Assembly (NCBI GenBank): GCA_900489925.1
Contig: UEHQ01000008.1
Coordinates: 186,001 to 250,000 of the forward strand
Reading direction: 5' to 3'
DNA length: 64,000 nucleotides
DNA from: Hyphomicrobiales bacterium
GTDB lineage: Bacteria > Pseudomonadota > Alphaproteobacteria > Rhizobiales > Rhizobiaceae
Shown: positions 37,973-55,119 of the stretch, in pieces
How the letters are laid out: each line of letters opens with the position of its first letter
How positions within the stretch are numbered: the first letter of the stretch is position 1
Made by a program: the position numbers and the translations under genes
The notes under the pieces: generated by a model
Database searches by the model: none
What the model saw: the letters and a program-made list of their open reading frames with translations, nothing else
What the model was told of the DNA's origin: nothing

Positions 37973-39082
37973 TTAGATTACGAATTCCTCCTCGTAGGTC
38001 TGTGGCTCGGAAACGACGGTAACCTCAACCGGAACGATCCAATTGGCCGCGTAACTCTCGCTGTCGGAACGCGGCAGGTCGGGCTGCACGCGCCCCGCCC
38101 CATCGCTCGCGCGACATCGCAGTGCATATCGCCCCACTTCTTCAGGGGTCCAGATGTACTCCCAGAAGCGCCATGCAAAGGGACGCTCGGTTTCGAGGAG
38201 CCTTCCCTCGCGCCAGCCCCTGCCATCTCCCGTGCAGACCTGCACCTGCCGGATGGCAGCCTCTCCGCTCCAGGCGGCTCCGAAAATCCGACACGGTTGC
38301 CCCACGATGAGACGCGCCCCCTGCACGGGACGCGCGATCTGCGCTTTGACCTCCATTTCCGCAAGCGGCACGAGCGTGGGTTGTCCGAAGCCGCGCTCCC
38401 AACGGAAATAGTCGCGCGCCTGCCAGTAGCCAAGGAACGGTTGTTCCACGACCGTGATATGCGTGATCCACTTGACCCAAGCCATGCCGAACCAGCCACC
38501 CACGACCGCGCGGAGCGGGTAACCGTGATCGCGCGTCAGCGGCTCCTCGTTCATCGAGTAGGCAAGGATGGTGCTGTCGGCGATGGCCTTCTCAAGTGGC
38601 AAACTGCGCGCAAAAGCGATGGGACCGGGAGAAGCCGTTTTCTTGCTTGTGTCTACGACGCCGCTGTCGGCGCCTACGAGCAGGACCTCACGTGCGGTTG
38701 GCTTAACGCCCGCCATTTCCAAGATCTCGCGCAGAAGAACACCTGTCCACCGGGCATTGCCGACAGCTCCGTTCTGCCACTGCAACCCTTCCTTTGGCGG
38801 CACGTAGTTGACGCGCCCGTTGCCTGCGCACTCGACCACGGCGGTGAGGGTCGTGCTCGCCATCGCCCTGATGCTGTCGAGGTAAAGTTCGATCGGCCGC
38901 TCCACCGCCCCGTCAACGCGCAATCTCCAGTCTCGCGCATCGAGATCCGGCGACGGGAAATGGTTTCGTACGAAGAACAGATCGGATGGAATCAGCCAGT
39001 CGGAGAGCAACGCAAACGGAAACTCGATGTTCGGTGGCGATTTCTGTCGGACTATCAGACTGGGTTGCTCTGGTGTCGGCAT
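37973..39082 (-). CDS. Sulfite-oxidase-fold molybdopterin enzyme
   Basis: 369-aa protein. The N-terminal oxidoreductase molybdopterin-binding domain contains the Mo-coordinating Cys85 in AVVECAGNGR and the pterin-contact block RDHGYPLRAVVGGWFGMAWV. The C-terminal Ig-like dimerisation domain begins near VKAQIARPVQGARLIVGQPC. No haem or transmembrane domain is present, and no Tat signal is visible, so it could be cytoplasmic. Family members oxidise sulfite or reduce sulfoxides. GGAG lies 8 nt before ATG 39082. It may act alone, because no cytochrome gene is adjacent. Confidence 0.88.
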   Translation of the reverse strand: MPTPEQPSLIVRQKSPPNIEFPFALLSDWLIPSDLFFVRNHFPSPDLDARDWRLRVDGAVERPIELYLDSIRAMASTTLTAVVECAGNGRVNYVPPKEGLQWQNGAVGNARWTGVLLREILEMAGVKPTAREVLLVGADSGVVDTSKKTASPGPIAFARSLPLEKAIADSTILAYSMNEEPLTRDHGYPLRAVVGGWFGMAWVKWITHITVVEQPFLGYWQARDYFRWERGFGQPTLVPLAEMEVKAQIARPVQGARLIVGQPCRIFGAAWSGEAAIRQVQVCTGDGRGWREGRLLETERPFAWRFWEYIWTPEEVGRYALRCRASDGAGRVQPDLPRSDSESYAANWIVPVEVTVVSEPQTYEEEFVI

Positions 39083-39188
39083 CGTCTCGTCTCCATTCCG
39101 AGAGCACAACGTTGGCACGCGGTCGCGCGAATTCCGGTTCGATCACACCGCCCCTTGAATGTCTTCAGGTCTCTGGGACGATTGTCCT

Positions 39189-39860
39189 TCAGGCACTACC
39201 TCTAGAGAAGACCAGCAACATATTGTTGGCAGGCATCTCGATTGTCTCGCGGAGATTGAGCCCAGCGGCCGCACCCACTTGTTCAAGGTCAACGATATCA
39301 CGCACACCCCAGGATGCGTTGCGCTCCTTCAGAGCGGCGTCGAATGCGGCGTTCGACGGGGCGTTGTGTGTGCCGCCGCGCATGAATGGGCCATAGAGCA
39401 CAAGAAGCCCGCCGGCGTGCAGCAAACGGCCAGCTCCTGCGAACAATCCTAGGCTTGCCGCCCAAGGCGCTATATGGATCATATTGATCGACACGATAGC
39501 GTCAAAACGCCCCGTTTGTTCGACGCCCCATTGCCCTGAGCACACATCAATATTCTGCGGTGCCAGCACATTCTTCAGCCCTGCAAATTTGATCCAGCCG
39601 GACGTGCTGGTGCGAGCGTCGGCATCCGGATCGCTCGGCTGCCATGTGAGGTTGGGCATTGCTCCTGCAAAACACACGGCGTGCTCGCCAGTCCCCGAAG
39701 CAATCTCCAGCACGACGCCATGTGTTGGAAGGACACGTTTTAGCACCGCGAGGATCGGCGCTGAATTTCGGGAAACGGAAGGCGAGAACATGCGCTGGTC
39801 GGCGCTTACCTCGCGCTGTTCCAGCGCAACAGGCAAACGGTCCTCCTTCTCTGGGAGCAT
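39189..39860 (-). CDS. DUF938 SAM-dependent methyltransferase-like protein
   Basis: About 223 aa. The DUF938 opening MFSPSVSRNSAPILAVLKRV is followed by motif I LEIASGTGEHAVCFA and a VSINMIHIAPWAA block. The family is annotated as methyltransferase-like with unknown substrate. I used ATG 39860 (MLPEKEDR). Starts at 39962 and 39791 are possible, since the family-conserved region begins only at residue 24 of this version. It lies 106 nt from the sulfite-oxidase-type gene on the same strand. Confidence 0.78.
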   Translation of the reverse strand: MLPEKEDRLPVALEQREVSADQRMFSPSVSRNSAPILAVLKRVLPTHGVVLEIASGTGEHAVCFAGAMPNLTWQPSDPDADARTSTSGWIKFAGLKNVLAPQNIDVCSGQWGVEQTGRFDAIVSINMIHIAPWAASLGLFAGAGRLLHAGGLLVLYGPFMRGGTHNAPSNAAFDAALKERNASWGVRDIVDLEQVGAAAGLNLRETIEMPANNMLLVFSRGSA

Positions 39861-40020
39861 TGGCCTTGGATCCCCGTTGGGCGATGTCCTCCACCTTATA
39901 GCCGAAATGATGGGATCGATAGCACGGATTTCGGACTTTCGAAGGGGCGTCGGCGCGTGCATTCGGCCGAGGCGCGATCGCGCACATTCTCCGGGTCCCG
40001 TGCCTCACTGAAAGCCTCAT

Positions 40021-40608
40021 CTACTCTCTGGCGCCGACGATCCGCATGGCCGTCGTCTTCCCAACCGAAAAGGCGGCCAATGTAGCGTGGATCGCACCAT
40101 GAAAAACGGTTCGCCCATCGTCTACGACCAGTTCCATTTTACTCTCTGGGGGTACGGGGGCGGCGTCCACGGGTGTCAAATCCAATGGCGGCGGAACAAT
40201 GTCCCTGCTTGCCGCCGTAACCAGCCTGTCACGGGTTTCGCAGCCGGGAAGGCACGACTCGAAGCCTGTCGGCGGTTTCGGCCGATTCATTGGCGTTGGA
40301 ATTCTATCTCGCAGTTTCTCCGGGTGGGCCGCGGCGATCTTTAGGGCCACTGGAATCGGCAATGTCATGGCATTCACTGCGATATCTGACGCCTGGACCA
40401 CTGGGGTGAATGGCAATTGGCTGATGACGTCGTCCTTTTGCGGCCTGGAGTCGGCGCCACTCGCGCTGCTGACAAGCTCCTGACCAGGGATGACGCGATG
40501 GGACTGAATCGGTTGACTTCCTGCGAGCCAGCTAACCAGCAGTCCGCCCGCAGCGACGATTGCATACATGGCCTTGCCCTGCACGAAGTTCGAAATTCCT
40601 GAAGTCAT
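40021..40608 (-). CDS. Hypothetical protein with N-terminal membrane anchor
   Basis: 195-aa protein with no family recognised. Residues about 14-30 (YAIVAAGGLLVSWLAG) form one hydrophobic anchor or uncleaved signal. The remainder is proline-rich and probably extracytoplasmic, with one CX3C pair (ESCLPGCETRD). AGGATGAG precedes ATG 40608. It may be a periplasmic protein tethered to the inner membrane; no context clarifies its role. Confidence 0.55.
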   Translation of the reverse strand: MTSGISNFVQGKAMYAIVAAGGLLVSWLAGSQPIQSHRVIPGQELVSSASGADSRPQKDDVISQLPFTPVVQASDIAVNAMTLPIPVALKIAAAHPEKLRDRIPTPMNRPKPPTGFESCLPGCETRDRLVTAASRDIVPPPLDLTPVDAAPVPPESKMELVVDDGRTVFHGAIHATLAAFSVGKTTAMRIVGARE

Positions 40609-40841
40609 CTCGATCTCATCCTTCTGTCACAAAAACTATGCGAAGAAGAACGCCAGATCGTGGCGCAATTTTCGCGGCTTCAAGGCCGGAAAACGGCGGT
40701 TTGTAAGGAAATGTGCGCACCGCAGGATTGCCTAGAAAAACATTACCCACAGGATGGGAGATCCTGCCAGAATCGCCTCGCCCCGAGGCATCTGGTCGTA
40801 GCCCGTTGAAGCGCGACCGTTTCGATCCCATCTGACCGAGT

Positions 40842-41483
40842 ATGCCCAAAACGAAGACGAAAACGAAAGACAGCGACGATCCCGAGTTGATCAAGGAGTG
40901 GCCGCTTCCGGTGGAGGCGACGCTGGGATCCGCTGTTCGGGTCAAAGGAATTCTACAAGAAGTCCGTTCCCGGCTGCCGCCCATTGTCAAAAAGTCCCTG
41001 GACATGCAGTCGGGCGCACTGATCCTCATCATGCCGGAGAATGCCAAGACGGTGTTCCGCGCGACCTCCTCCGCCGTCTCGAAAGCGCTGGAGGACATCG
41101 CGGACCTTCCCGTCATCCCTCGCGAGATCGAAGACATCCTCACGATTACCGCTTCAGAGAGGAAGCGTTGGCTAGAGGACGGCCGCCTGCCAAGTGCTGG
41201 AATACGAACAGTCAGATTGCAGGGAAGAGCGAGGAAGATCACGTTCCATGTATTCGACCCCCGCGTTGTCGAGGAGCTGCTTGACCGCGGCGCCGTCGAT
41301 GAGTGGCGGGAGCATGACGCCGCCGCGAAAGCAGAAAACCGGAGGCGCGCTGCGTACCAGGCAAAGCTGACGCGGACACTGAAGAAGAAAGAGAAAACCA
41401 AACGAACGGAACCGGACCCTGACGAACCTATGACCGCGTTGAGCGGATGGGACGAATTCGATAGCGACGGCCTTCTACGCTGA
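40842..41483 (+). CDS. Hypothetical protein with lysine-rich C-terminus
   Basis: 213-aa protein with no recognised family. The middle part (about residues 100-150) contains EIEDILTITASERKRWLEDG followed by basic strands, which could be a small DNA-binding module, but I cannot assign one. A strongly charged coiled C-terminal tail (AENRRRAAYQAKLTRTLKKK) follows. The opposite strand has a long serine-rich frame that looks like a shadow. It is the last gene before the transposition operon. Confidence 0.6.
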   Translation: MPKTKTKTKDSDDPELIKEWPLPVEATLGSAVRVKGILQEVRSRLPPIVKKSLDMQSGALILIMPENAKTVFRATSSAVSKALEDIADLPVIPREIEDILTITASERKRWLEDGRLPSAGIRTVRLQGRARKITFHVFDPRVVEELLDRGAVDEWREHDAAAKAENRRRAAYQAKLTRTLKKKEKTKRTEPDPDEPMTALSGWDEFDSDGLLR

Positions 41484-41648
41484 AACGCCTTAGCCGCCGG
41501 ATCGGCAATCGGCAAATTGCCCTTGGTGGAAGGTTCTCGCCATCATCCCCGTGATAGCTATAGGGCCAGTTCAAATTGACTCAGCCCGAACGTTGTTTTT
41601 ATTGAGATTCTAAATTTTTTGATTCAGGATTTTTTGAAAAATTTGATT
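41484..41648. other. AT-rich tail beyond the second TniQ gene with GATTC motifs
   Basis: 165 bp. GATTC occurs at 41606, 41621 and 41645 in a strongly AT-rich stretch, and TGTTTTTATTGAGATTCT starts at 41594. TGT-ended termini with short spaced repeats are typical for Tn7-like transposons, so this is a candidate end. No matching terminus or target duplication was proven. Confidence 0.3.
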
Positions 41649-43442
41649 CTATAGACCTGATGTCGTTGGAAGCTCAGCAGCGAACTGCTCCAGCCAGCGG
41701 TCAACGTCCTCCCTATTTCTATCAGTGGTGATATCGTCAGAAAGACGGGCTCCCGCCTCATTCAGGAGATGAATTATCTTCGCCTGAGATCGTGGGCGGT
41801 TCCTCATCACCAGTATATTTTCGACTTCTCGAATTGTGGTACGTTGCTTACGAAAATGGTGCATGCGCTTCATCGTCGTCACGTTGGCCGCTCGAAGAGC
41901 AGGACTCCACCTGTCCAGGGTGAACAACTTTATATCAAGGTGAAATGCGATCTCGTCGAATCCGGCAGGATAGTCCGGGATGTTGGCAGAAGTCGGAATA
42001 CTCTGGCAGAAGGCCCGCCAAGGAAGAAAATCTTCGACTTGGAACTGATCGAGCCACACGGAGGCTTCCGTTTTTATGAATGGCAACTTTCCCTCTTTCA
42101 GAGCTTCGAAAACAAACGGCCATGGGCTTATCTCGCCGTTAAAGAGCACCGAAACCGTCGCCCTGATCGGCAGACAGTACGAATGGCGGCTGGGCTCTGG
42201 TTGTACACATTCGACAAAACTGTTGACCTCAGCGTTTGAACCGAGAGCTGTTGCGAGTTCAATGTCGGGGCAAGGAAGGCTGAGATTGAGAAAGCTTTCA
42301 AACAGAACTCCGCGAGGAATCCCCGTTTCCTTGCTCATTTTGCGCACGGCTTTGGATTGCATCGCGAACGCGTGCAGCTTTAAGAGCGAAGAGTGGGAAG
42401 AGACCTCCAGATGTTTTGGGAGCGCGACCGGAGCATGCGCGTGAGGTAACAACCTAGCTTTCCGTACCGTGGCCACGGTATCCAACGGGAAAATTTTCGT
42501 CTGTTTCAACAAGGTTTCGAAGCGATTTTCCCTTGTGTTCATTCTGGTGGGTAAGACTGCAGCCTCTCTTATCCGGTCATCCAAGTGGGCGAACCCGTGC
42601 GGCCATTTCAGTAATGCTCGAGCTGCCACAGCAAGGTTTTCGGGAGAGGCAGTCGACGCCGTAAAAAACCTTTTGCCGATTGTGGGAGTGGTATCGTCGT
42701 CGAGTGCTACAGCGATGAGAACACACAGCATGAAGAGCTCGCCACGACTTATGCAGGTCAGCTCGTCATGCAACCCCGAGACTCTGTTCTCCATCTCAGG
42801 GTCGATAAGACCCGTGAAGAAGCGAAGGGCCTCTGGATCGCTGCATTCAATTGTGGGCTGCACGAAATCGCGGAAATCCATCTCGGGGCCGCATTCTGCG
42901 CAACTTGACACGCTTCCCGCAGGATACCAGAACGTTAGGAGATTCCCGCATCCCGGGCATCGCTCGAGGAGCCGTTCATGGGTGCTAGGGTCAAAAGACA
43001 CTGCGCGGATGTGCCACATTGCCTTCGAGTGATTTGATTTTCGAAGCGACGCAGGCGCCACGCGACGATGGTCGAGTAACTGGCGTCGCGGAATGGCGGT
43101 ACCGAAGAACTCGCACAACCCATGCTTCCCACATTCCGACGCCACGGTGCGGTATACCAACGGCAAAAGGTCAGCTTTCCCATGCGGGCATCCAAGAAAG
43201 TCGGCGACAGGTCCTAGATCGAACGAGGCATTCGCCAATCGATAGTGTGTTACAGGGTAACGAATCTTTCGAATGAATCTATTTGTGGTTTTCAATCCGT
43301 TCAACGCGCCAGAACGCAAGAGGATATCTGCGAGTCCTTCTCCGCTCAGCGGCGCAACCGGAATCGGCAGCCTCGTGCCGACAAGATCAATCAACCGCGA
43401 CGCAATCTCCGGCGTTATACGAATGTTTGAATCCCCGTACAT
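41649..43442 (-). CDS. tniQ: TniQ-family target-selection protein, second copy
   Basis: 597-aa protein of the TniQ/TnsD family. A TniQ domain is followed by a zinc ribbon with Cys162, 165, 181 and 184 (RCPGCGNLL and SSCAECG) after LRKSNHSKAMWHIRAVSFDP. The rest (about 400 aa) is TnsD-like in size and may hold DNA-recognition helices. It differs widely from the TniQ encoded just before it but shares the block leading to SFDP and the zinc ribbon. A 172-nt gap separates the two genes, so this one may have its own control. Confidence 0.85.
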   Translation of the reverse strand: MYGDSNIRITPEIASRLIDLVGTRLPIPVAPLSGEGLADILLRSGALNGLKTTNRFIRKIRYPVTHYRLANASFDLGPVADFLGCPHGKADLLPLVYRTVASECGKHGLCEFFGTAIPRRQLLDHRRVAPASLRKSNHSKAMWHIRAVSFDPSTHERLLERCPGCGNLLTFWYPAGSVSSCAECGPEMDFRDFVQPTIECSDPEALRFFTGLIDPEMENRVSGLHDELTCISRGELFMLCVLIAVALDDDTTPTIGKRFFTASTASPENLAVAARALLKWPHGFAHLDDRIREAAVLPTRMNTRENRFETLLKQTKIFPLDTVATVRKARLLPHAHAPVALPKHLEVSSHSSLLKLHAFAMQSKAVRKMSKETGIPRGVLFESFLNLSLPCPDIELATALGSNAEVNSFVECVQPEPSRHSYCLPIRATVSVLFNGEISPWPFVFEALKEGKLPFIKTEASVWLDQFQVEDFLPWRAFCQSIPTSANIPDYPAGFDEIAFHLDIKLFTLDRWSPALRAANVTTMKRMHHFRKQRTTIREVENILVMRNRPRSQAKIIHLLNEAGARLSDDITTDRNREDVDRWLEQFAAELPTTSGL

Positions 43443-43614
43443 TCACGACTCTCTTTCGATCATTTTCAGTTTGAATTTTTGGGCGTTCGGATTTCGCCGC
43501 CTCGCCTGGTCGCGAGCGGGTTACGGCACGTCGATGTCCATCACGGAACATCGAACGGTGTTCCGTGTCCTCATTTCCGAAAAGCGGAATTCTCCGTCCT
43601 GCTGTTATTCGATT

Positions 43615-45489
43615 TCAATCGACCGACAGACCGCACTCCAACAAAGCCGGGACGCGGTCCCATAGGAAGATCCCACCCACTCCAATTCTTTGGACATTTG
43701 TACGATGCAGATTGGGGATACGCTGGGGGGACCCCACGCCACGTATTTCGAGTAAGTTCTGCAGCTCGAACGTCAATGCCCATGAACGTCGAAGATCTCT
43801 AACACGCTCGAGTGTCAGGTCCTTTTGAACGTTTGTCGCCTCTACAAAGCGAACAGCTGTCGATCTCGACCTTCCCATTATCATCCCGAGCTCAACCTGC
43901 GTCATCACGACCCTTCCCCCGATGGACTTAGGTGGCTCAGTTGGAACGACATCTTGAATCTCTCGGGGGTCGACCAGGTAAAGATCGCTCACGAGGCCGC
44001 GACCAGACGGTGGCCCTCGCGAGATTTGGATCTTCCCATCGAAGATGGCCCAAAAAATCTTGGACCATGACACCTCCAAGCCGACGTCCAGCGCGAACCG
44101 AGCAGAGGCAAGGGAAAGCCCGCACTTCCCCGTGCTGAGCTTGGGCAAGAACGCGAAAAGGTCGGCGGACGCTTTCTCATCGGGTGTGGCGAACCCGTAC
44201 CGCGTAAGAGTGGGAACTAGATGCGGCAGGAGCCCGGCAAAATATAGCTCGTGCACGTCGATAATGGGCAATCCCAGAATGTTTGACGCCCTCTGAGCCT
44301 CAGGAATTGCCCGGAGGATCTTAACGGCCGTATCTACACAATCATGGGATTGATCCGGCGTCTCATGCCTTGATCGGATCAGTTTCAGCAACTCTACCCG
44401 GGGACGTCGCAATGGCGCACCGCTTTGCTTCACCCAGCTGCTTTTACTTGCTGAGCGATTCGAGTCGCCATTCGCGGCAGATGCCCGAGCGTTGCGAACC
44501 AGAGTTAGAGCGCGCAGAGTGCGAACAGTCCCCCGCAAGCTTCTGGATAGGGTTCCGTCGTTCTGCAGTTGCCAAAGCGACACAGCTCTCGCGTCACCTG
44601 GAACTGAGGTTGCTTCTCCTGCTAGCAAGATGAATGCTTCTGGCCATCCTAAAAGCGCCCTCGCCGCTTGTGTCAAGAATTTGGGCTCGATTGCGGCGCG
44701 TCGGGGCGCCGCGTTGATGTTAAGCTGGGAGAGTGCAGCTATCCGTACCGCAAACTGAAACAAATCGCTGCGCGACGAACCAGATATCGGAAGTCTCCAC
44801 TTCGCGAAATCCGCATCTGATACTTCCGGGTTCACGAGATCTGTGAAAAAATTGAGTGCCTCGTCGTCATTTGTAACCACCAAAGGCTGCGGAAAATCCC
44901 GCAAATCGACGCTTCGAAATGGGCATTGCTCACAGAAGTTTATTCCGACTGTCTTACTCCAGCCCAGCGCGTTTGAGCAGGAGGGGCACTCTGACAAAAG
45001 AGTTTCGCGCGTGCCAGGGTCAAAGCTCAATGGGCGCAATGACCAGATTGCGCGCTGATAGTTCTTCTCCGAGAGTGCGCGAGGTGACACCCGCCGGACA
45101 TTGCTGATGTGCGCTCGTTGGATCCGATGCCCAAAGAAGGATACATGTTCTCTTCCTCGCGCTTGTGTCTGCTTCAAAATTTCTTCGAGTTGAACTGAAT
45201 TGGGTCGAATTCCCAGCACATCCACGATGCGCCCCACTTCTCCGGAATCGGACAGGGACGTGAACGCTGACAGACCTCTAAACGTGCGCGGCTGTATAAG
45301 CTTTATCACGTGGCGCGTGTCAGGTAGGCCATTCTCGACGGCGGCCCGCAACACCGTGTCACGGAAAAACTCGCCGACCGCGAGCTGAGCAGGTACGGCT
45401 AAGACCTTGCCCAGCAGGGGGTACCTACGCAGCCAGTAGGTAGCGTCGGCGGAAGTGGTTGCAGCATCTTGATCGTTATTTTGCGGCAT
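43615..45489 (-). CDS. tniQ: TniQ-family target-selection protein, first copy
   Basis: 624-aa TniQ/TnsD-type protein. Zinc ribbon cysteines are 168, 171, 186 and 189 (SECPSCSNALG and NFCEQCPF), preceded by LSEKNYQRAIWSLRPLSFDP. The central and C-terminal regions are long, as in TnsD, and include an HTH-like GMIMGRSRSTAVRFVEAT near residue 560. It overlaps the tnsC stop by 14 nt, so the two are translated together, which fits the need of TniQ to contact TnsC at the target. Confidence 0.85.
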   Translation of the reverse strand: MPQNNDQDAATTSADATYWLRRYPLLGKVLAVPAQLAVGEFFRDTVLRAAVENGLPDTRHVIKLIQPRTFRGLSAFTSLSDSGEVGRIVDVLGIRPNSVQLEEILKQTQARGREHVSFFGHRIQRAHISNVRRVSPRALSEKNYQRAIWSLRPLSFDPGTRETLLSECPSCSNALGWSKTVGINFCEQCPFRSVDLRDFPQPLVVTNDDEALNFFTDLVNPEVSDADFAKWRLPISGSSRSDLFQFAVRIAALSQLNINAAPRRAAIEPKFLTQAARALLGWPEAFILLAGEATSVPGDARAVSLWQLQNDGTLSRSLRGTVRTLRALTLVRNARASAANGDSNRSASKSSWVKQSGAPLRRPRVELLKLIRSRHETPDQSHDCVDTAVKILRAIPEAQRASNILGLPIIDVHELYFAGLLPHLVPTLTRYGFATPDEKASADLFAFLPKLSTGKCGLSLASARFALDVGLEVSWSKIFWAIFDGKIQISRGPPSGRGLVSDLYLVDPREIQDVVPTEPPKSIGGRVVMTQVELGMIMGRSRSTAVRFVEATNVQKDLTLERVRDLRRSWALTFELQNLLEIRGVGSPQRIPNLHRTNVQRIGVGGIFLWDRVPALLECGLSVD

Positions 45490-46525
45490 CGAAATACTTC
45501 ATCCACTTGTCTCCAAACCCCTTTTCGTCCACAGCGACCCTTACTTTGCAGTCCCGCTCGATCTCCTCATCGTTCAATTTCAGAAAGGGGTTGTACAAGC
45601 ACATCTCGATATCCAACGCATATTCGTCGATGGACTGAACCAAGTCTGGGACCTCGATGCGAGAGGATTTTCTCTCGGATGCGAGGATCGCAGCATCACG
45701 GACAATATTCGAGAGTACGCCAAGGCGCCCCTGTGAGGCGTAGTACAAGCGAAGAAGTGCATAATCCTCGGCAAGCCCACTTTCCTCGTCGAGAATTCCG
45801 GTTTCCAGCATAAGGAGCTCCAGACCAACCAAGAATTTTCGGAACTCGTCGCGGTCCCTATCAAGCCGCAACGGCATGATATCCAGGCTTTTCGCTCGGT
45901 TTTTGAGCTGCATATTCTTGAGGATTGCGTTTCTTGCGTAGTACAGGCCCGTGAACACGATCGGCAAGCCGTGTTCCATCATCGATTTCACCGTATCTTG
46001 GATGTCGGTAGCCTGTTTCTGGCTCTCAGCGTCCGCCTTTTTAGTCAGCTGATCGAAATTATCGAGTACCAACAGTTCGGTGCCAGCGCTCTGCATGACC
46101 TGCTCAGCGCGACGTATCCTGTCGAGAACATTCTCGCCTTTTATCTGAGGAGTTCCATCGTCCAAAGCTACCAGGAGCTTCGTGCCAAAATCCCCGAGTG
46201 TCGCTTTCGGTGGAACCTTGACGTACAGGTATTTCTTCTGAAGCCTCTTCACTTGATCGTCTGGAACACTTTCTGGGAATTCGCCGCTTCTCCGAAGCTC
46301 CGGCAGAATGTGGTGCGAAAAGTACATTTTATTTACGATGTGTGACTTTCCGCAGTGACTTGCCGAGAGCAGATGTGCCCCGAGTGCCTCAGTGTCCCAA
46401 CGGGATGCGCGCTTCGCGGACCGGAGCTTATCCATGTACTTCATCGCCTTTTCGGCTTTGGAATGCACTACGATCCATTCCTTGAAGAGAGACATGATCT
46501 GGCCACTTTCAATACGTCCTGTCAT
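45476..46525 (-). CDS. tnsC: TnsC/TniB-type AAA+ ATPase of the transposon
   Basis: 349-aa AAA+ regulator that links target selector to transposase. Walker A is seen as SASHCGKSHIV (Lys60), and the Walker B is LLVLDNFDQL (Asp155), where Asn replaces the usual catalytic Glu. Sensor and lid helices follow (PIVFTGLYYARNAIL, then ASQGRLGVLSNIVRDAA). Its ATG overlaps the stop of a 67-aa ORF by 4 nt. Confidence 0.87.
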   Translation of the reverse strand: MTGRIESGQIMSLFKEWIVVHSKAEKAMKYMDKLRSAKRASRWDTEALGAHLLSASHCGKSHIVNKMYFSHHILPELRRSGEFPESVPDDQVKRLQKKYLYVKVPPKATLGDFGTKLLVALDDGTPQIKGENVLDRIRRAEQVMQSAGTELLVLDNFDQLTKKADAESQKQATDIQDTVKSMMEHGLPIVFTGLYYARNAILKNMQLKNRAKSLDIMPLRLDRDRDEFRKFLVGLELLMLETGILDEESGLAEDYALLRLYYASQGRLGVLSNIVRDAAILASERKSSRIEVPDLVQSIDEYALDIEMCLYNPFLKLNDEEIERDCKVRVAVDEKGFGDKWMKYFDAAK

Positions 46526-46725
46526 TTGCGGCCCCGGTCGCTGTTGCTGGAGGAAACCTGACCGAAGCTTCGCCCGCGTTCCGCTAAGCGCTCACTGAGA
46601 ACGGAAAGCGCGACAGACCCGACTGTGGGGATCTGCGGCAAGATTTCGCTGCAGACCAAATCATTTGTTGTAAGGTAATCTGCTACACTGACGATCTCGT
46701 CGTCATCATACGCTTTGTTCGCCAA
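46522..46725 (-). CDS. 67-aa protein encoded between tnsB and tnsC
   Basis: Acidic N-terminus (ANKAYDDDEIVSVADYL) and a basic end (SSSNSDRGRK). The start would be TTG 46725, with GGAG 8 nt upstream, and the stop overlaps the tnsC ATG. No family is recognised. Its position in the operon suggests a small partner of TnsB or TnsC. It could be an adaptor like those between transposase and ATPase in related elements. Confidence 0.55.
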   Translation of the reverse strand: MANKAYDDDEIVSVADYLTTNDLVCSEILPQIPTVGSVALSVLSERLAERGRSFGQVSSSNSDRGRK

Positions 46726-46752
46726 GCTCTTTTCTCCATCTTAAGTTGCGTG

Positions 46753-49143
46753 TCAGCTGCGAGAAATTTTGACCTCACCTCTCATTTGCTCAAGGATACT
46801 GCGGCCATCGCTTATTGGAGGCCGCGGCGCGGGTGCCAGCGCTGCCACGTTCGCGGCAGCTTCGACAGGATCCGGCGACAGAGCAGCATTTGGTGTCGCC
46901 CTGAGATCGATGATAGGTGTCCGATCAACCGCAACCCTTGGCGCGTCGACCTGGGGAGCAGCCTTTGGAGATCGGGCCTTGCGTCTACTTTTGCCGGTTC
47001 TTTGGATAACAACTTGATCGCGTTTGTGCGCGGCCATCTCACGCGAGGAGCTGCGGCCGTCATTTCCGCTCGACGCCGCCCTGCTGAGGTCAACCGCAAC
47101 GGACAGATCTACGATCGGCAGCGGCTTGTCCGTAAGTCGCGCCGCGATTGCCGCCTTGTTAATATCGAGGTCGTTGCGCCCGTAGAACTCTTCGATCTGT
47201 TGATTTTTCTGTGCACGCTCTATGACCCGGTGGTCGTAAGTTCCCTGGCGAGTGGCATCGACGTTGGGCATCCTGTAGTATTGTCCGCGCTTCGGATGAT
47301 AGATCGAGATCGCGGTCACATCGCTCAACTCAGTGACATCGATCTTCAACTTGCGAGTGTTGTTCTTCTTTTTTGTACCTCGGGGTCTCGACGTATGTTC
47401 ACAAAGCTCATCCATGAACAATGTCACGATGATAGGGTCACAAAAGAATTCGTTCCGATACTCGATGCCGGAAGTGGTCATGGTCCGAGTCTCGCTCCGA
47501 CCAAAAGCGTTTTCGATGACGTTCATGTCATCAGCCATCGGCCTGTTGTATGTCTCGAACGAGCTTTTCCATACTAGCGCGGGTGGGAGTTCCAGCTCAG
47601 AGTGTACGTCCAAGTGATAGACGGTTGCTATCCAGTCCCAAAGGAGGCGCTGAGCCTGGGGTAGCGTGAACCGAGCGGTCTTTCGCGGATCTACTTTTGA
47701 AACGCCAGGCTTCTCGGGAACTCCGCCATCAGCTTCGTGCCAGAGGCTCGTGTTTAACGTCTGGAAAAACCGTTCGACGATTGCCTTGTACTGCGGAGTC
47801 CGGACGGGCGCGAAAGACACGTTCAACCCGATTGCGGAAGCAGACGATCGCATCGACCGGCCGACGTTCGACAGATCGTTGTCGACCAACATCCGCTTGA
47901 AAAGTCCCCACCCGTCTATTGCCCAGTGGAAAGCCGGATCAGTATTGAGGTAAGCGAGGAAATCTTTCGGCTTTAAGGTCTGCTTCAGCCCGGCATTTAG
48001 CGTCTCCAGAGACGGGCCATCGATTGAAAGCGTCGCGGCCAGAACCATGCGCGAGAAGACGTCGATAACGACGATCAGGTACGGGCGAAACGTTTCCCCG
48101 ACAATTTTACCATTTGCGTCAAGAACGATCGTGTGGAGGTCGATCTGAGTAAAGTCCATCACCACACACTCGAGCGGTCTCAGTGCCGAGACGTGCGGAT
48201 GAACACCTTCGATCTGTCTGTTGGCGACCTGACGGCCCTCTCGTCTCGCAATATTTTCGAGAGTTGCTTGTCGATCGATCCAATTCTGGATCGTCTGATC
48301 TGTCGGTGCGGCGAAGCTTCCCGTCTCATCTTTACCTGTGAGGAGAAGATGTTCAACCGTTGGAACAAATTCCGAAGGCGGCACAATTGCCGTCGGGCCA
48401 GTCTGAGGCGAAGACAGCTGGCGCATTTCATCCCCGAGGAGATCGCCAGCGGAAAGTGCCAATCGACGCTTGCGCTCTCTTGCGATTTCTCCGTTAAACC
48501 ACCTTTTGACCGCTTGGGGGGTGGGCTTATGAGGGCTCCAGTACCATTGTTCCGCTGCGCGTTTGTGGGCTAGGACAAAGTCAATCCACAAACCTGACCG
48601 TCTGTCTCCACCGCTACCGTTCAGAAATACATTGAAAGGCCGAAAGTGCTTTTCTCCGCACTCCCTGGCCAGACGGATTAGCGTACTAGTGCCAGGCGCT
48701 TTTGCGTTCTCTCCGAAATTTCTCTCGTGGATTTCTTTATGATTATCGATGAATTCGTTTATCTTGTCGTGCGAGGCCGAGATGGAGTACTCGTCCATGC
48801 ACCGCACATAGTAATGTTGTATAGTTGCTTTGAGATACTTCTTTTTTCGAGCTTTTACATGCTTCGAATCGCTCGGCAACTCAGGCTCGAATGCGGCGGG
48901 CTCGACGGCAAAGTCCTCTGATGGCTGCGCCGTCTCGTCGGACCGTTTGATCGCGAGGCCCTTGACCCGCATGAACAAGTAGTCTTTTCGGCCGATATAG
49001 TAACGTCCACTTCGGTCAACGCGGTCGAAAACCAGGTCGCCGTTCGGTTTCGCCTTGACGAAGATCGCGGTAAAGCTCTCTGACCCTCTTCTCTCCTTGA
49101 AGTAGATCTTGTCGCCGGGGCTGGCGTCTACTGGGTTTAGCAT
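46753..49143 (-). CDS. tnsB: TnsB-type DDE transposase
   Basis: 796-aa Mu/TnsB-family transposase. The DDE triad is at Asp330 (ECVVMDFTQIDLHT), Asp421 (FKRMLVDNDLSNVG) and Glu457 (YKAIVERFFQTLNTS). The first 130 residues are an N-terminal domain seen again in the gene just upstream. The C-terminal tail beyond about residue 690 is basic and disordered (GKSRRKARSPKAAPQ), which in TnsB contacts TnsC. It cleaves and joins the 3' ends while TnsA cuts the 5' strands. Confidence 0.92.
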   Translation of the reverse strand: MLNPVDASPGDKIYFKERRGSESFTAIFVKAKPNGDLVFDRVDRSGRYYIGRKDYLFMRVKGLAIKRSDETAQPSEDFAVEPAAFEPELPSDSKHVKARKKKYLKATIQHYYVRCMDEYSISASHDKINEFIDNHKEIHERNFGENAKAPGTSTLIRLARECGEKHFRPFNVFLNGSGGDRRSGLWIDFVLAHKRAAEQWYWSPHKPTPQAVKRWFNGEIARERKRRLALSAGDLLGDEMRQLSSPQTGPTAIVPPSEFVPTVEHLLLTGKDETGSFAAPTDQTIQNWIDRQATLENIARREGRQVANRQIEGVHPHVSALRPLECVVMDFTQIDLHTIVLDANGKIVGETFRPYLIVVIDVFSRMVLAATLSIDGPSLETLNAGLKQTLKPKDFLAYLNTDPAFHWAIDGWGLFKRMLVDNDLSNVGRSMRSSASAIGLNVSFAPVRTPQYKAIVERFFQTLNTSLWHEADGGVPEKPGVSKVDPRKTARFTLPQAQRLLWDWIATVYHLDVHSELELPPALVWKSSFETYNRPMADDMNVIENAFGRSETRTMTTSGIEYRNEFFCDPIIVTLFMDELCEHTSRPRGTKKKNNTRKLKIDVTELSDVTAISIYHPKRGQYYRMPNVDATRQGTYDHRVIERAQKNQQIEEFYGRNDLDINKAAIAARLTDKPLPIVDLSVAVDLSRAASSGNDGRSSSREMAAHKRDQVVIQRTGKSRRKARSPKAAPQVDAPRVAVDRTPIIDLRATPNAALSPDPVEAAANVAALAPAPRPPISDGRSILEQMRGEVKISRS

Positions 49144-49565
49144 TGTGAGCCATTCCCATTATCAGGTCTGCTGCCACCGGAACTCGACTTCTCGTTGGAG
49201 GCCGAGACTGAATACGCATCCATGCACATTAGGTGGTAAAGCTGTATGATTGCTTTGAGATACTTCTTCCGAGCTTTTAGTTGACTTAAATCGCTCGTCA
49301 GTTCTGGTTCGAACGTGTCGGCTTCGACCGCAAAACTCTCTGACGGCAGCACCCCGTCGTTTGGCAGCTTTATCGCAAAACCATCAGCCCGCATGAGCAA
49401 GAATTGTTCCCGGCCGACATAGTAACGTCCACTTCTGTCAACGCGGTCGAAAATCAGGAAGCCACTTGGTTTTTCCCTAACAAAAGTCGCGGTGAAGCGT
49501 TCTGGCCCTTGTCCCTGCATTAAGTGAAATTTGTCGCCGGGGCTGACGTCCAGTGGGGTAAGCAT
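49137..49565 (-). CDS. Stand-alone copy of the TnsB N-terminal domain
   Basis: 142-aa protein. Residues 1-125 parallel TnsB residues 1-125 throughout: VSPGDKFHLMQGQG against ASPGDKIYFKERRG, FDRVDRSGRYYVGR against FDRVDRSGRYYIGR, and FEPELTSDLSQLKARKKYLK in both forms. Divergence is substantial, so it is not a fresh duplication. It ends in unrelated residues and stops inside the start of tnsB (7-nt overlap). It could be a tandem-duplication remnant or a domain protein that modulates TnsB. Confidence 0.65.
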   Translation of the reverse strand: MLTPLDVSPGDKFHLMQGQGPERFTATFVREKPSGFLIFDRVDRSGRYYVGREQFLLMRADGFAIKLPNDGVLPSESFAVEADTFEPELTSDLSQLKARKKYLKAIIQLYHLMCMDAYSVSASNEKSSSGGSRPDNGNGSQC

Positions 49566-49692
49566 TCCTACACATTCCCTTCTGCTGGTTTGCAGCCACC
49601 GGATCTCGGATATAGGAGATCTGAGCGGCCCTAAGAACGATCGTCCGTCGAGATGGCCCGTTCGGGCCCTCAATTTCCGTGGTGCTGGTTAG

Positions 49693-50199
49693 CTATTGAG
49701 GAAACGCTTTGAAGCGCTCATCGCGAGGCCTATGGATCTCGTGATATTCATCGATCCAACCGGCAATCTTGGAGAGAGCTGTTTCGCCGTCGGGAATAGG
49801 TGTGGTGCTTATGTAGTCCCGCGTCAGAGTGCTCACGAAAGCCTCCACCACACCCTTCGATAGCGGGCTGGCCACGGGCATGAAGCGTGGCACCAGCCCG
49901 GTAGTCATGAACTCGTCGCCACCACCGCTCTCAAAAAAATGTTCGATGGGTTGAAGTTCGCTGGTTGCGCCGAAGCGCTTTTCGATGGCCTCCAACATCA
50001 TTTCTTGGGTGTCGGAGTCTGATATCTCGGCATTGGCGATGGCTGACCAAGATATGATTCTTCCGCCGGACTCGTCGATGATAAATGCGATACAAACCAC
50101 ATCGCCATTCCAGCAGAAGAACTTGAGATGATCGGCGCACCAACGAAAGTTCGGCCGTATCAAGGTATGATCGGAGAAGATAAACGCAACGTTCAGCAT
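49693..50199 (-). CDS. Truncated IS3-type DDE core with altered active site
   Basis: 168-aa protein matching the C-terminal integrase core of IS3-family OrfB (IS2-like group). RWCADHLKFFCWNGDVVCIA parallels the usual WCSD and CWNG opening, and EAFVSTLTRDYI parallels the third catalytic block. The second catalytic block, normally WLSDNGS, reads FFESGGG, with Glu in place of Asp and several residues missing after it. AGGAGG lies 5 nt before ATG 50199 and only 8 nt separate it from tnsA. Probably inactive as a transposase, but it looks translated in this operon. Confidence 0.7.
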   Translation of the reverse strand: MLNVAFIFSDHTLIRPNFRWCADHLKFFCWNGDVVCIAFIIDESGGRIISWSAIANAEISDSDTQEMMLEAIEKRFGATSELQPIEHFFESGGGDEFMTTGLVPRFMPVASPLSKGVVEAFVSTLTRDYISTTPIPDGETALSKIAGWIDEYHEIHRPRDERFKAFPQ

Positions 50200-50207
50200 T
50201 GTGCCTC

Positions 50208-51122
50208 CTACTGCAACGTCATCGTTGCGAGAGCCTGATGTCTGCGGCCAAGGATGGGCGGCATCGCTACCTTGGTGAACTGATGGGGTTTCTCGAAGAA
50301 ATCGATCCATATATGGCCCCGGATGTGCAAGGCGTTCGCGAACTCTCGCCCGTCTGGGCCGCCTCCAAGCGCGTCGATCATTTGTCCATAAGTGGTGATA
50401 CCGTCACAATTACCCAGGAAGCGCCATGCGCGCTCGGTCATCGCACGCGACACTTTGGCTGTGTCGTCCATGAGAATTGAAGGAAGATGGAGGAGATTGA
50501 ACGGCCGCAAATCCGCCACCTCTTCGACGACATGAAAGTAATAGCCGTTCTTGAGGTAGATCTCCTTCGCGCACTTCAGTTTGGCTTTGTAATCGGCCTC
50601 TTCAGCAGCTTTCTCGGCTGCCCGCTTCGCAGCCCTTGCCAGTTCCAAAGGGTCACGGCCTTCGTAAGGCTTGAGCGTCGCGTGCTTCGAGGCACCTTTG
50701 ACCTCGATAATTAGCGCGACGAGGTCCTCGGCGGCTGCGCGAAGTTGGGGCATCTTGAGGGCAGCGATTACAAAGGGCACCCCGTTTTCAAGCTGTCGTA
50801 CGAACCATCGCGGGACGACCACTTCAAGGTCAGGGGTGTATTGCCATCTTCCGGCTCCTCCTTTCTTGGGAAATATAAGTGTATGGGGCTGCGACATGTA
50901 CGTGAGTGCACTTGTCGAGAGGTCCAGGAGCGACATGACCAGCAATTCCGCGTCGGACTCGGCGGGCAAGATATGGTTCTTCACCTTTGTCGAGTTGTAA
51001 ATGTGGGTGGTGTTTAGCTTACGACCCGTGACTCCAAACCTGATTGGTCCTCCGTCAGCGGCACGGTACATCCATTGCGACGGGCCCACGCTGACGCGGG
51101 TTCTCTCTAATCTCGTGTCCAT
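50208..51122 (-). CDS. tnsA: TnsA-type endonuclease of the transposon
   Basis: 304-aa restriction-endonuclease-fold protein. The nuclease residues are in ESDAELLV (Glu55/Glu59), YTPDLEV (Asp98) and LIIEVKGASK (Glu140, Lys142), which is the TnsA D-EVK pattern. The C-terminal half (after about residue 180) has a winged-helix-like part with KCAKEIYLKNGYYFHVV, as in TnsA. It is the first gene of the operon, read away from the 51.2 kb side. ATG 51122 has GAGGTGACATG, a good site. Confidence 0.88.
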   Translation of the reverse strand: MDTRLERTRVSVGPSQWMYRAADGGPIRFGVTGRKLNTTHIYNSTKVKNHILPAESDAELLVMSLLDLSTSALTYMSQPHTLIFPKKGGAGRWQYTPDLEVVVPRWFVRQLENGVPFVIAALKMPQLRAAAEDLVALIIEVKGASKHATLKPYEGRDPLELARAAKRAAEKAAEEADYKAKLKCAKEIYLKNGYYFHVVEEVADLRPFNLLHLPSILMDDTAKVSRAMTERAWRFLGNCDGITTYGQMIDALGGGPDGREFANALHIRGHIWIDFFEKPHQFTKVAMPPILGRRHQALATMTLQ

Positions 51123-51264
51123 GTCACCTCCTCAACGAGGCCTCGACTGGCGCCGAGGCTCAAATGTTGTAAACTAGAGCTGTCAGGGTGATTTATCGGA
51201 ACGACTCACATCCTGTTAGGAAATGGTAGGATGAATGAGGGCGAGAGTCCAATACGGTGGAGAA

Positions 51265-51786
51265 ATGAGAAACTCAGCGGCGGTCGAGAGCCAGCTCCTC
51301 GACGAAAGTGCGATCGGAAAAAGCGACAATGAGCTACTAACTCTCAACGACTCTGATTTTGACGAGGCACTGCAAAAAGCCATCCGCATCAACGACGCGA
51401 AACGCGAGCAGCTCCGAACCAAAGTAAGGGAGATGCAAGCGGCGCTGAATAAGGCGGACACCATGGACGAGCATCTGAAGCGTTTGGCAGCCATCAGGCA
51501 GCAGCAAAACGACGACACCGTATTAGTTCCGGAAACGCTAGGAACTAGGCAGCGTAAGCGCCGCACCAGCATGGCCTTTAAAGTGAGGCAGGAAGTCTAC
51601 CTGATACTGAAGCGCGTTAACCGCCCTCTCAATCGAACCGAGCTTTTACGTGAGCTAACCGGCGCGGGCGTAGAGCTCCCAGCGCAAAATCCACTGGCTG
51701 CGATCACCAAGATCATGTGGAATACCGCAGAGTTTGAATCGACGGGCGGCGGCTACTGGCTGGCCGGAGAGCCCCTTCCAAATTAA
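51265..51786 (+). CDS. Coiled-coil and winged-helix-like protein next to tnsA
   Basis: 173-aa protein. A helical coiled-coil region (about residues 25-75, ALQKAIRINDAKREQLRTKV) and a basic link (GTRQRKRRTSMA) precede a C-terminal winged-helix-like domain (ILKRVNRPLNRTELLRELTG, then AITKIMWNT and GGGYWLAG). GGTGGAG before ATG 51265 sets the start. It is divergent from tnsA, 142 nt away. It could be a cargo or control gene of the element, or a chromosomal neighbour. Confidence 0.6.
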   Translation: MRNSAAVESQLLDESAIGKSDNELLTLNDSDFDEALQKAIRINDAKREQLRTKVREMQAALNKADTMDEHLKRLAAIRQQQNDDTVLVPETLGTRQRKRRTSMAFKVRQEVYLILKRVNRPLNRTELLRELTGAGVELPAQNPLAAITKIMWNTAEFESTGGGYWLAGEPLPN

Positions 51787-52351
51787 AAACATTTCCATCG
51801 CATTCTGAACGAACAAATGGCGCAGCGCGTCACGGCATTCCATTTCAGCGCAATTCTAAAGGATTTACATTCCAATATGAAGGATTGAATCCTTGCAAAA
51901 CGGAATAAGAAGCATTCCACGACGCGAGTATTACATGCATTGAATCCTTGCCCAAGGAACATTGACTTGCGGTCCCAACGACCGACATAGGCCCGGATTT
52001 CCGCCATCGGAAACGGCTACACCCTCTTCGACGACATGGCATACGCGTGTCCAAAACGTCGGATTGCGGCACTCAAAAACGAAGCGGGAAATTGTAACGA
52101 ACGTGAGATAACACCAACGAGTTAGCCCATCACACGGAGGCTATGAGGATGGTTGCAGCCACTAGCCGAATGACAGATCGGTATGGTCGACAGCACTCCG
52201 CAGCAGTTATTACAGCAAACATTGAAGGCCAGGAAAGCAAGCAGCTTTGGAGCTGCGCGAACCAACGCGGAACGCCTTCAGACACGGAGAGCTCCTAGTT
52301 CCTCATGAACTACTCGGTAAAGGGTCCTCATAGTCCATTCGTCACGCCTTG
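51787..52351. other. Gene-free region with repeated ATTCC/GAATCC motifs
   Basis: 565 bp without a supported gene. From 51789 to 51960 the pentamer ATTCC or its near relatives recurs on both strands, including the perfect inverted repeat AAGGATTGAATCCTT at 51880-51894 and the direct repeat TTGAATCCTTGC (twice). Such spaced short repeats could be transposase-binding sites at an element end. I see nothing definite in 51961-52351. Confidence 0.35.
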
Positions 52352-52650
52352 AGATCCTCACCGAGCCTCGTCGGAGATCTTCGGAACGCCAGGGGCTTTA
52401 ATGGACCACCCCGGTTACTTTGACAACTGCGAGATCGTTGGTCTCATCGATCCGGGGGGTCGGTGGTATCACCCCGTCCCTTCACCTCGATCCTCCCGCA
52501 AGCTTGAAAGACGTGGGCATTTGTGAGGATCCAGCCGTCCGCGGTAACGGCAAATCCAGTTCCTGACGAGCTCGGCCCTGCGGCAAAGCATTGCGAAGCG
52601 ATGACCACTGACAGGCCAACAGTAACAAACAAGCGATATGTGACTAACAT
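52352..52650 (-). pseudogene. Truncated, frameshifted copy of the serine-protease gene at 56.8-58.1 kb
   Basis: The first 45 residues (MLVTYRLFVTVGLSVVIASQ, then SGTGFAVTADGWILTNAHVF) nearly equal the intact protein. A change in a C-run near 52455 shifts the frame, so translation ends at TDPPDR. DNA similarity continues to about 52352, through the region of the catalytic Asp, then stops. The promoter side is also similar. It is a partial duplication that lacks the Ser region, so it cannot be an active protease. Confidence 0.8.
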
Positions 52651-52802
52651 TGTAATTCCCCAGGCGCCCGAAACTAAGTCCCCTGCGGCAATCGGTTCGG
52701 AGGTCGCAAGCAGCTCGCTTGCCCTCAGCAACCTCCACCTCTTTTAGACGTTATCGATATGCGGCGTGCCTTCAGGCTGCGCCCTGTGTCGTGGAGGATA
52801 CA

Positions 52803-53039
52803 ATGAAAAGCATCACCGAATGGCTAGACGAGAATGTGAATGACGATGCCTCCGTCGAACAACATGCTGATTTCCTGAGAGCCGAGGCCGAGGCGGCCGG
52901 GTATTCGGCTGATGACCTGAACCGAGCTTGTGGTGGCGACATCGCCGAGTTTCTCAGGAGTCGGCGGACCGACGCTGCCGACGGGAAGATGGCGGGCGAT
53001 CTCTCTCCGATCCTCACGCCCGGCTTCAACCAGCAGTGA
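52803..53039 (+). CDS. Small acidic hypothetical protein (DUF768-like)
   Basis: 78-aa protein: ITEWLDENVNDDASVEQHAD, then AEAAGYSADDLNRACGGDIA. This pattern recalls small DUF768-type proteins of rhizobia, by recall only. GGAGG lies 5 nt before ATG 52803. A strong hairpin terminator follows. It has no signal peptide, membrane segment or known function, and codes cleanly as a single-gene unit. Confidence 0.65.
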   Translation: MKSITEWLDENVNDDASVEQHADFLRAEAEAAGYSADDLNRACGGDIAEFLRSRRTDAADGKMAGDLSPILTPGFNQQ

Positions 53040-53058
53040 GCGACAATTGAAGACACAA

Positions 53059-53091
53059 AGGGCGCTCGACCGCATCATGCGGGAGCGCCCT
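53059..53091 (+). terminator. Intrinsic-terminator-like hairpin after the small acidic gene
   Basis: AGGGCGCTC and GAGCGCCCT pair over 9 bp, with an inner CCGCA/TGCGG stem around a 3-nt loop. It lies 20 nt past the stop at 53039. The T-run is short, so efficiency is uncertain. Confidence 0.7.
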
Positions 53092-53244
53092 CGTCACCCA
53101 GGCGAAGGCATCCTGCGGCAATCATGCCGCGGACATCGACGAATGTTTGGGTGGTGAGCAAGAGATGGTGACTATCAGCCTCTTCTTCAAGGTCGGTCCA
53201 CGGTCCACCTTGACGAGCTGCATTCTGCCTCCATTCTTCAAAGA

Positions 53245-53484
53245 ATGCCCAACCGAACTCCTCCTCACGAAGCGCATCCCGATCTTTTTCTGCACTGCCA
53301 GGAGCAGATGGAGACGGCGTTCACGGCCATGGTGGAAGCAGCCGTGCTATCCGGATGGCACCCGGAGGAAGTCGCAGCTGCGCTGGTCGAATTAGCCGAC
53401 AATCATATGCTGGCGGTCCTTGCGAATCGCGATCTGGGGAGAGCCCTTGCCCTCGACGGAACAGGAGATAGCAATGTGCGCTAG
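53245..53484 (+). CDS. Small rhizobial hypothetical protein
   Basis: 79-aa protein, mostly helical, with HEAHPDLFLHCQEQMETAFT near the start and GWHPEEVAAALVELADNHML later. Similar short proteins are common as orphans in Rhizobium genomes, from general recall. The ribosome site is weak (AAAGA before ATG 53245). It may belong with the next short gene on the same strand, which starts 70 nt later. Confidence 0.5.
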   Translation: MPNRTPPHEAHPDLFLHCQEQMETAFTAMVEAAVLSGWHPEEVAAALVELADNHMLAVLANRDLGRALALDGTGDSNVR

Positions 53485-53553
53485 GTCCGCGACCGCATTC
53501 GAGCTGGAGAATGAGCAGCAGCGACAGTTACCACAAACCTCATCGTCGAGTGC

Positions 53554-53829
53554 GTGCGTGCAGCGAACTGCCTCCCAACTCTTCCTAAGGCCGAGCGGCG
53601 CCGCCTGCTGGAAAGCGGTGTCACCGCCTCGGGCGTCCTGCGGGGACTTCTTATCCGCACAGGAAAGGTAGCGCCATTCGACAAGGCTGCGGAGCAAGTA
53701 ATCGGCGACATCGCCCGAAACGTTGAAATGATGCCGGACGAGGCAGTCTCGAAAGCACTCCTCGCACTAGCGGCTCAGATCAGAACGCTTCGGATACTTA
53801 ACCGGGAACCAGCGGCTTCGCGCGGATAG
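53554..53829 (+). CDS. Small helical protein of a rhizobial orphan family, start unclear
   Basis: 91 aa from GTG 53554. RAANCLPTLPKAERRRLLES and EVMMPDEAVSKALLALAA-type helices are seen. Family-like residues continue upstream of the GTG (TTNLIVECV is encoded just before), yet no ATG lies between there and the in-frame stop at 53512. The true start may be non-standard or the 5' end damaged. It looks related to the gene at 54800-55117 by length and helix pattern. Confidence 0.45.
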   Translation: MRAANCLPTLPKAERRRLLESGVTASGVLRGLLIRTGKVAPFDKAAEQVIGDIARNVEMMPDEAVSKALLALAAQIRTLRILNREPAASRG

Positions 53830-55117: not shown

Positions 55118-55119
55118 GC

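Follow-up and report, generated by a model that had tools for sequence, protein, structure and literature searches.

We analysed a 64,000-nucleotide stretch of a Hyphomicrobiales genome (Rhizobiaceae; GenBank assembly GCA_900489925.1, contig UEHQ01000008.1, positions 186,001 to 250,000), hereafter the window, which encodes the Tn7-like proteins TnsA, TnsB and TnsC and two different TniQ proteins. This locus very probably represents the left-hand portion of a large Tn7-like transposon that is site-specific and whose attachment site is a noncoding block located before a gene of 66 amino acids (aa). The transposon occupies positions 41559-64000 of the window (no strand assigned), runs on to the end of its contig (C48 of the genome labelled G000) and finishes at base 58789 of a second contig, C35. 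A sequence-only reading of the window had described the 9.5-kb operon, which is real; the element comprises more than the operon, and that reading did not mention that it runs far past the window.

Ends of the element and its attachment site

The left terminus was located at 41559 (5'-TATAGGGCC, beginning TATAGG) and the right terminus at C35 base 58789 (...GAGCCTATA, ending CCTATA and followed directly by ATAGC). The bases ATAGC form a target-site duplication: one copy precedes the left terminus (41554-41558), and the other lies on C35 at a distance of 70 bp from the attachment block. GAATC-type repeats occupy the left end (41559-41651, through the tniQB stop codon), the last of them (GAGTC) starting 24 bp from the terminus. 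C48 carries 39,925 bp of the element and C35 carries 49,401 bp, which amounts to 89.3 kb if the contigs abut, and the contiguous element of the relative G049 measures 89,729 bp. We also tried a repeat cluster past the helix-turn-helix (HTH) gene (51787-52010) as the right end, at ~52010, and rejected it, as no target duplication fitted there; the cluster is internal to the element.

The block follows the pattern TTCAA.A....TGATG.TA.CCATAA..TCTATTCGTTTGATTGATG and is noncoding and single-copy, occurring (with at most 3 mismatches) once each in 144 of 148 Rhizobium genomes, against 0 occurrences of a reversed control pattern. Across 17 occupied and 6 empty sites, the conserved positions read atc.TTCAA.A....TgATG.tA.CcATAA..TCTATTCGTTTGatTGATG, then a conserved cCATAT, after which the 66-aa gene starts. 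That gene has no Pfam match, and a LysR-type regulator is encoded nearby; we infer that the block is the promoter or operator of the 66-aa gene, tied perhaps to this neighbouring regulator. The attachment site is the block before the 66-aa gene and not the 3' end of glmS. A small-RNA gene at the site was also considered and discarded: Rfam gave nothing credible for the empty site, and in window positions 36000-64000 no match reached the gathering score.

Related elements

To place the element among its relatives, we used TniQ-A matches: a cut-off of E <= 1e-5 gave 14 of 150 genomes, and the stricter E <= 1e-20, applied to 148 Rhizobium genomes, gave 21 (own genome counted in both). These 21 genomes yielded a total of 23 related elements: 18 with two TniQ proteins, 3 with a single TniQ (G060, G192 and a plasmid copy in G016) and 2 incomplete (G027, on a plasmid, with TniQ-B only and without tnsA, and G151, cut by a contig end). 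Some dual elements are damaged or split, with TniQ-A frameshifted in G156, TniQ-B fragmented in G163, and TniQ-A and TniQ-B on different contigs in G180. In addition, tnsC is in pieces in G060, and tnsB in G163, G179, G027 and the G016 plasmid copy. The G016 plasmid copy, on Rhizobium sp. BG4 plasmid NZ_CP044126 and away from the attachment block, has a single TniQ and tnsB in three pieces; that of G027, on Sinorhizobium sp. B11 plasmid CP091033 and also away from the block, is a TniQ-B-only remnant, without tnsA and with tnsB broken.

Target duplications and empty sites across the family

We searched for element ends as matching termini with reverse-complementary 5-base flanks, yielding four strong solutions (39 for G050, 39 for G160b, 35 for G180 and 34 for G048) and two weaker ones (30 for G016 and 29 for G156). 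The best of 306 mismatched pairs reached 34 and 33, both in the near-identical G050/G160b/G180 group and without a matching duplication, and the rest did not exceed 30. For the other 12 of 18 elements, no ends above chance were found within 4 kb of the HTH gene. The right end was ~70 bp from a common sequence in five of the six solved elements, namely those not stacked on another element. The duplications expected for 11 further elements were then written down before the fetched spots were read, and the expected 5 bases were found exactly in all 11 (G000, G049, G011, G007, G032, G065, G043, G157, G160a, G060 and G192). On a common measure, 17 of 17 elements matched at 65-72 bp from the block, versus 4 of 272 mismatched pairs. 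The target duplication is 5 bp long (6 bp in G032 and G043), and all 17 elements share one orientation, with the right end toward the block and the left end toward the LysR gene.

Comparison of related strains, which had been proposed as a way to find empty sites, gave clean ones in G015 and G022. These are 91-97% identical to three occupied genomes, and, counted from the LysR landmark, the similarity breaks at +306 (G043), +311 (G065) and +318 (G032). Sequence from the opposite side of the empty site was recovered past the right end in G016, G050, G179, G032, G157 and G007; in G043 and G065 it lies on other contigs.

Several observations weigh against reading the locus as part of a site-specific transposon. 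By their ends alone, G016 and G156 are no better than mismatched pairs, and G204, outside the list of 11, fits exactly only after a 2-bp shift of its left end that was made after seeing the data. The ends are on different contigs in 6 of the 17 elements (G000, G011, G043, G065, G180 and G204), the window element among them, and are paired there by the exact duplication only; the other 11 are contiguous. Two of the 23 elements are on plasmids away from the block, G160b lies beside another element, and no pair of ends could be assigned in G151, G163 and G179 (G163 and G151 have an end-like sequence at the block spot, with no left end for comparison). TnsA is weak by profile (Pfam 0.057), and no transposition was observed.

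As a rival explanation, the site could be a generic genomic-island hotspot in which Tn7-like genes ride along while other recombinases cut in. In its favour, the distance from the LysR gene to the block also varies in genomes whose chromosome has none of these elements: of 51 such genomes 46 were tallied, 20 having an interval below 400 bp and the longest reaching 54 kb (the tally omits G001, G024 and G035, where the two landmarks are on different contigs in the latter two, and G003 and G025, which lack the block). We nevertheless consider this explanation very improbable, since 17 elements carry the marks of Tn7-type transposition, that is 5-bp duplications, repeat termini by tniQB, fixed spacing and fixed orientation. 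In G001 (C1), the LysR gene and the block are ~1.05 Mb apart and their relative orientation is changed, unlike in the other genomes tallied.

Two elements are arranged in tandem in G160, with the junction ACTATAGG and the duplications ACTAT and ATAGG; the element adjoining the block would be the newer one. Tn7-like termini are usually 5'-TGT...ACA-3', which is customary rather than defining. The window element departs from this with TAT...ATA; several relatives have ACA, G065 is mixed, and the single-TniQ elements have TCA/GCA. A DUF1127-like gene forms the left flank in eight elements and was evaluated as the recognised target; it was rejected, as the left flank varies, yet the right spacing is constant. 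Other left flanks are a DAHP synthase gene in G180 and a marC-looking gene (identified by eye) in G011 and G160.

Genes of the tns-tniQ operon

The five genes were confirmed on the minus strand, in the order tnsA (50208-51122), tnsB (46753-49143), tnsC (45476-46525), tniQA (43615-45489) and tniQB (41649-43442). TnsA, the probable endonuclease, was assigned by gene position and by an E/D/ExK set of residues, with E59, D98, E140 and K142 invariant in the 15 of 21 TnsA proteins aligned; its Pfam match is weak (0.057), and a PDB profile search with TnsA gave no relevant match. TnsB, the DDE transposase, matched PseTnsAB with an E-value of 6e-26 as a single sequence and 1.5e-42 as a family profile, and its residues D330, D421 and E457 are kept in 8 of 8 proteins aligned (out of 20 TnsB proteins). 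TnsC, the AAA+ ATPase, matched Pfam TniB (3e-11) and, as a family profile, VchTnsC (1e-25). Its Walker A motif is kept in 19 of 19 aligned proteins. At the Walker B position, LDN rather than LDE is found in the window protein, G049 and G011, LDR in G027 and DE in the other 15 of 19, so that ATP hydrolysis by the window-type TnsC may be altered, judging by this motif. Between tnsA and tnsB (49137-50310) lie a truncated duplicate of the TnsB N-terminus (49137-49673, minus strand; a similar piece is also present in G049) and a remnant of an rve-type transposase, probably IS3-like (49693-50310, minus strand; Pfam rve and rve_3, below cut-off).

TniQ-A (624 aa) and TniQ-B (597 aa) are both TnsD-type proteins and clear homologues of each other. 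As the sequence-only reading had it, they differ and each has its own CX2C...CX2C zinc ribbon; both reading frames are intact. Both matched the PADLOC TniQ_IF profile (1.4e-5 for B, 1e-3 for A), and a joint TniQ profile matched the PDB TniQ structure 7u5d (1.5e-6). TniQ-A reached only E 0.1 against Pfam TniQ, below cut-off, and TniQ-B had no match; NCBIfam gave no match for the TniQ, TnsA or HTH proteins. Because a PF06527 search of the window's own genome picks up neither TniQ, a Pfam-based survey may overlook the family. We further built an AlphaFold model of TniQ-B from 10 sequences (mean predicted local distance difference test score 75.7). In a Foldseek search with this model, TniQ structures rank first and TnsD is within the top ten, and realignment of the predicted fold to TniQ gave Z up to 14.1 with a root-mean-square deviation of 5.8 over 273 residues. 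No clear structural match to the long C-terminal part of the model was found in either the Foldseek search or the realignment.

A TniQ tree was computed from 40 of 43 reading frames, excluding G156 (332 aa) and G163 (252 aa and 401 aa); the excluded G163 fragments are thus labelled TniQ-B by position only. Clade A (19 rows, support 100/99), clade B (18 rows, 93/88) and clade C, which holds the single TniQ proteins (3 rows, 100/100), are all separate. The separate, well-supported clades argue that TniQ-A and TniQ-B are old paralogues, and the tree rules out a recent duplication, which the sequence-only reading had named, together with inactivation of one copy, as a finding that would undo it.

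Element architecture

The gene order in the family is a divergent HARE-HTH-like gene, tnsA, tnsB, tnsC and tniQA. In the window type tniQB directly follows tniQA, after a 172-nt gap (43443-43614, minus strand), whereas it is 20-231 kb away in G016, G048, G050, G156, the second element of G160 and G163. Because of this distance in 6 of 18 dual relatives, tniQB is a separate genetic unit. Separate control had been suggested from the gap, which has the length given; the distances in relatives bear out the separateness, and at the gap itself we found only a weak sigma-70-like match (43618-43589; 1 found versus 0.2 expected). Wherever the left terminus was seen, it lies 58-167 bp from the stop codon of tniQB (or of the lone tniQ in single-TniQ elements), with the exception of G060, where extra DNA brings the distance to 854 bp.

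In the window, the divergent gene (51235-51786, plus strand) encodes a coiled coil and a winged helix. Of the 23 elements, 20 have a homologue next to tnsA; none was found in G032 and G027, and the stretch is not covered in G204. Pfam HARE-HTH is matched by 4 of 18 members, with E 0.006 at best. A structural model of the protein has a winged-helix C-terminus and gave no Foldseek match below E 0.001. Its position and predicted fold lead us to guess that it probably represses the promoter shared with tnsA.

Among the 14 right ends compared, we observed a module with an XRE-like HTH protein (12), a DUF6634 protein (10) and an FtsH-like AAA+/M41 protease (11), also present in single-TniQ elements and located on C35 at L208:1677-4283. 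The ATPase part of the FtsH-like protein resembles PADLOC IetA (2.6e-22).

Proposed mechanism and roles of the two TniQ proteins

In the mechanism we propose, TnsA and TnsB would excise the element by cut-and-paste, a TniQ/TnsD-type protein would bind the block via its C-terminal part and recruit TnsC, and TnsC would relay the target signal as a go-between. TniQ-B, encoded by the gene that stays next to the left end, could select a second type of target or join the same complex as a partner. We lean towards TniQ-A as the site-binding selector. In all three single TniQ proteins the C-terminal part scores higher with the A profile and the core higher with the B profile (both profiles leaving out the partial proteins G151, G156-A and G180-B), and the closeness of the C-terminal part to A gives a weak lean to TniQ-A as the site binder. 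Conservation does not settle the choice: dividing the value for the C-terminal part by that for the core gives practically the same ratio for A (0.66) and B (0.65) (excluding G156, G163 and G180 of the 18 dual elements), and the attempt to use conservation for assigning the site to one of the two was abandoned as not decisive. TniQ-A is more conserved than TniQ-B in both parts.

The single-TniQ elements of G060 and G192 use the same site as the dual elements, so that one TniQ is enough for homing and a second is not needed for it. This bears on the suggestion in the sequence-only reading that one TniQ directs the element to the chromosome while the other directs it to mobile elements. Such a division of labour, with one protein homing to the chromosome and the other directing insertion into plasmids or mobile DNA without CRISPR (clustered regularly interspaced short palindromic repeats), is in line with the joint presence of A and B, old paralogues, in 18 of 23 elements, with the existence of the BG4 and B11 plasmid copies and with the two-route life of Tn7 relatives described in the accessible text of PMC11406308. 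We found no A- or B-specific target, however, and only one TniQ is encoded by the BG4 plasmid copy, so that plasmid entry seems not to need the second one; the B11 copy, with TniQ-B only, no tnsA and a broken tnsB, tells little. We regard the suggestion as possible without favouring it. Alternatively, the two TniQ proteins may act jointly as a heteromer at one site, neither having a target of its own, in line with the same site and same spacing in 15 dual elements. This seems unlikely to us, given that tniQB is apart from tniQA in six relatives and that single-TniQ relatives manage without the second protein.

Search for CRISPR-Cas genes

The whole genome was searched for Cas1, Csy3 (Cas7f) and DevR, and none was found (Cas12k was not searched for), in agreement with the absence of Cas genes from the sequence-only reading. 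We used a simple exact-repeat scan for arrays and detected no CRISPR-like array on contig C48 or on the element part of C35. A CRISPR-Cas locus just outside the window, which had been named as an observation that would overturn the idea of a non-CRISPR route, was rejected on these results. Within the Cas families and stretches searched, the element has neither the Cas effector genes nor the CRISPR array of a CRISPR-associated transposon (CAST).

Cargo and flanking genes

With the left terminus at 41559, everything to its right in the window belongs to the transposon, including a defence pair of the SIR2-HerA type, with HerA at 58367-60301 and its SIR2 partner at 60084-61289 (both minus strand). 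Further genes of the element outside the window are dnaE2, imuB-like and dinB-like. We had considered dnaE2/imuB as the host flank of the island and rejected this, as the matching stretch is inside the element in G049. A search with window positions 52010-56300 in 100 relatives gave scattered partial matches only.

On the host side, the landmark left of the insertion is the LysR-type regulator gene (36546-37487, minus strand), which one comparison found in each of 59 further genomes of the genus and another in 11 of 11; its best NCBIfam model is LrhA, well under cut-off. Beside it lies the small DUF1127-like gene (37550-37723, plus strand; Pfam PF06568, E=0.0017, below cut-off). Between this pair and the left end (37800-41550) are genes for a molybdopterin oxidoreductase and a DUF938 protein and two unknown genes; this left flank (37.8-41.5 kb) had no match near the LysR gene in the 17 relatives compared.

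Relation to known Tn7-like systems

Dual-TniQ elements without CRISPR are already known. In the accessible text of PMC10293859, dual tniQ-tnsD loci are common (998), and a branch around Tn7017 with dual tniQ-tnsD is described as "mostly lacking Cascade I-F". As far as that description goes, our family resembles the Tn7017 branch in combining tnsABC with two TniQ/TnsD proteins, here with no Cas genes found among the families searched. It differs in that both TniQ proteins are ~600 aa, the second usually being much smaller in known pairs, in its attachment site and in the tniQB gene fixed at the left end. Two-TniQ CASTs are reported in the available part of PMC11406308 to use glmS, tRNA or parE attachment sites, on a side that varies among elements; those of type I-F3 use parE, unlike the elements at the Rhizobium block.

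The closest solved structures for TnsB, TnsC and TniQ are those of type I-F3 CASTs (Tn6677, PseCAST), with which the window-family TnsB and TnsC score best. Differences from these are the absence of Cas7f (Csy3) from the genome and of a CRISPR-like array from the scanned stretches, and the long extra C-terminal part of TniQ. With E. coli Tn7, the element shares a probable TnsA, TnsB, TnsC, a TnsD-type protein, a 5-bp duplication, a single orientation and an attachment sequence past the right end. It differs in using a noncoding block before a small gene instead of the glmS 3' coding end, in having another TniQ as the second selector (TnsE was not searched for), in its TAT...ATA ends and in the position of its tns genes near the left end.

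Tn7-like elements have median lengths of 14-29 kb and a longest length of 140 kb in the accessible text of PMC8649781. In G048 (Rhizobium sp. BK313; C1 ~844948-1086841) the ends, with the exact duplication CCGAA, are ~242 kb apart. By end positions, G048 and G192 (~154 kb) would exceed that record, and G048 is possibly the largest Tn7-like element, although nested elements may contribute to both lengths.

We searched the literature on Tn7-like elements with Rhizobium and TnsD and on DUF1127 with Tn7, and the site was not described there, subscription papers falling mostly outside this search. The attachment site, the TAT...ATA ends and the tniQB gene fixed at the left end appear to be new. On balance, we think that the family is a Tn7-like lineage that homes to a noncoding control region and not to a gene end or tRNA. 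Without CRISPR, it would carry two TnsD-type selectors of full length, with the gene of one kept in place at the left terminus; cargo would load on either side, the ends would be TAT...ATA, and elements would be able to stack in tandem and reach lengths of ~34 to 242 kb.

Plant-associated Rhizobium would thus harbour a protein-guided, CRISPR-free relative of Tn7, and since its site, ends and empty sites are defined, the role of the second TnsD-type selector is directly testable. The family also explains islands that are found at a single variable position of the Rhizobium chromosome, and it includes very large Tn7-like elements with genes for defence and DNA repair. Rhizobial engineering might take an interest in a natural transposon that inserts very large cargo at one safe site.

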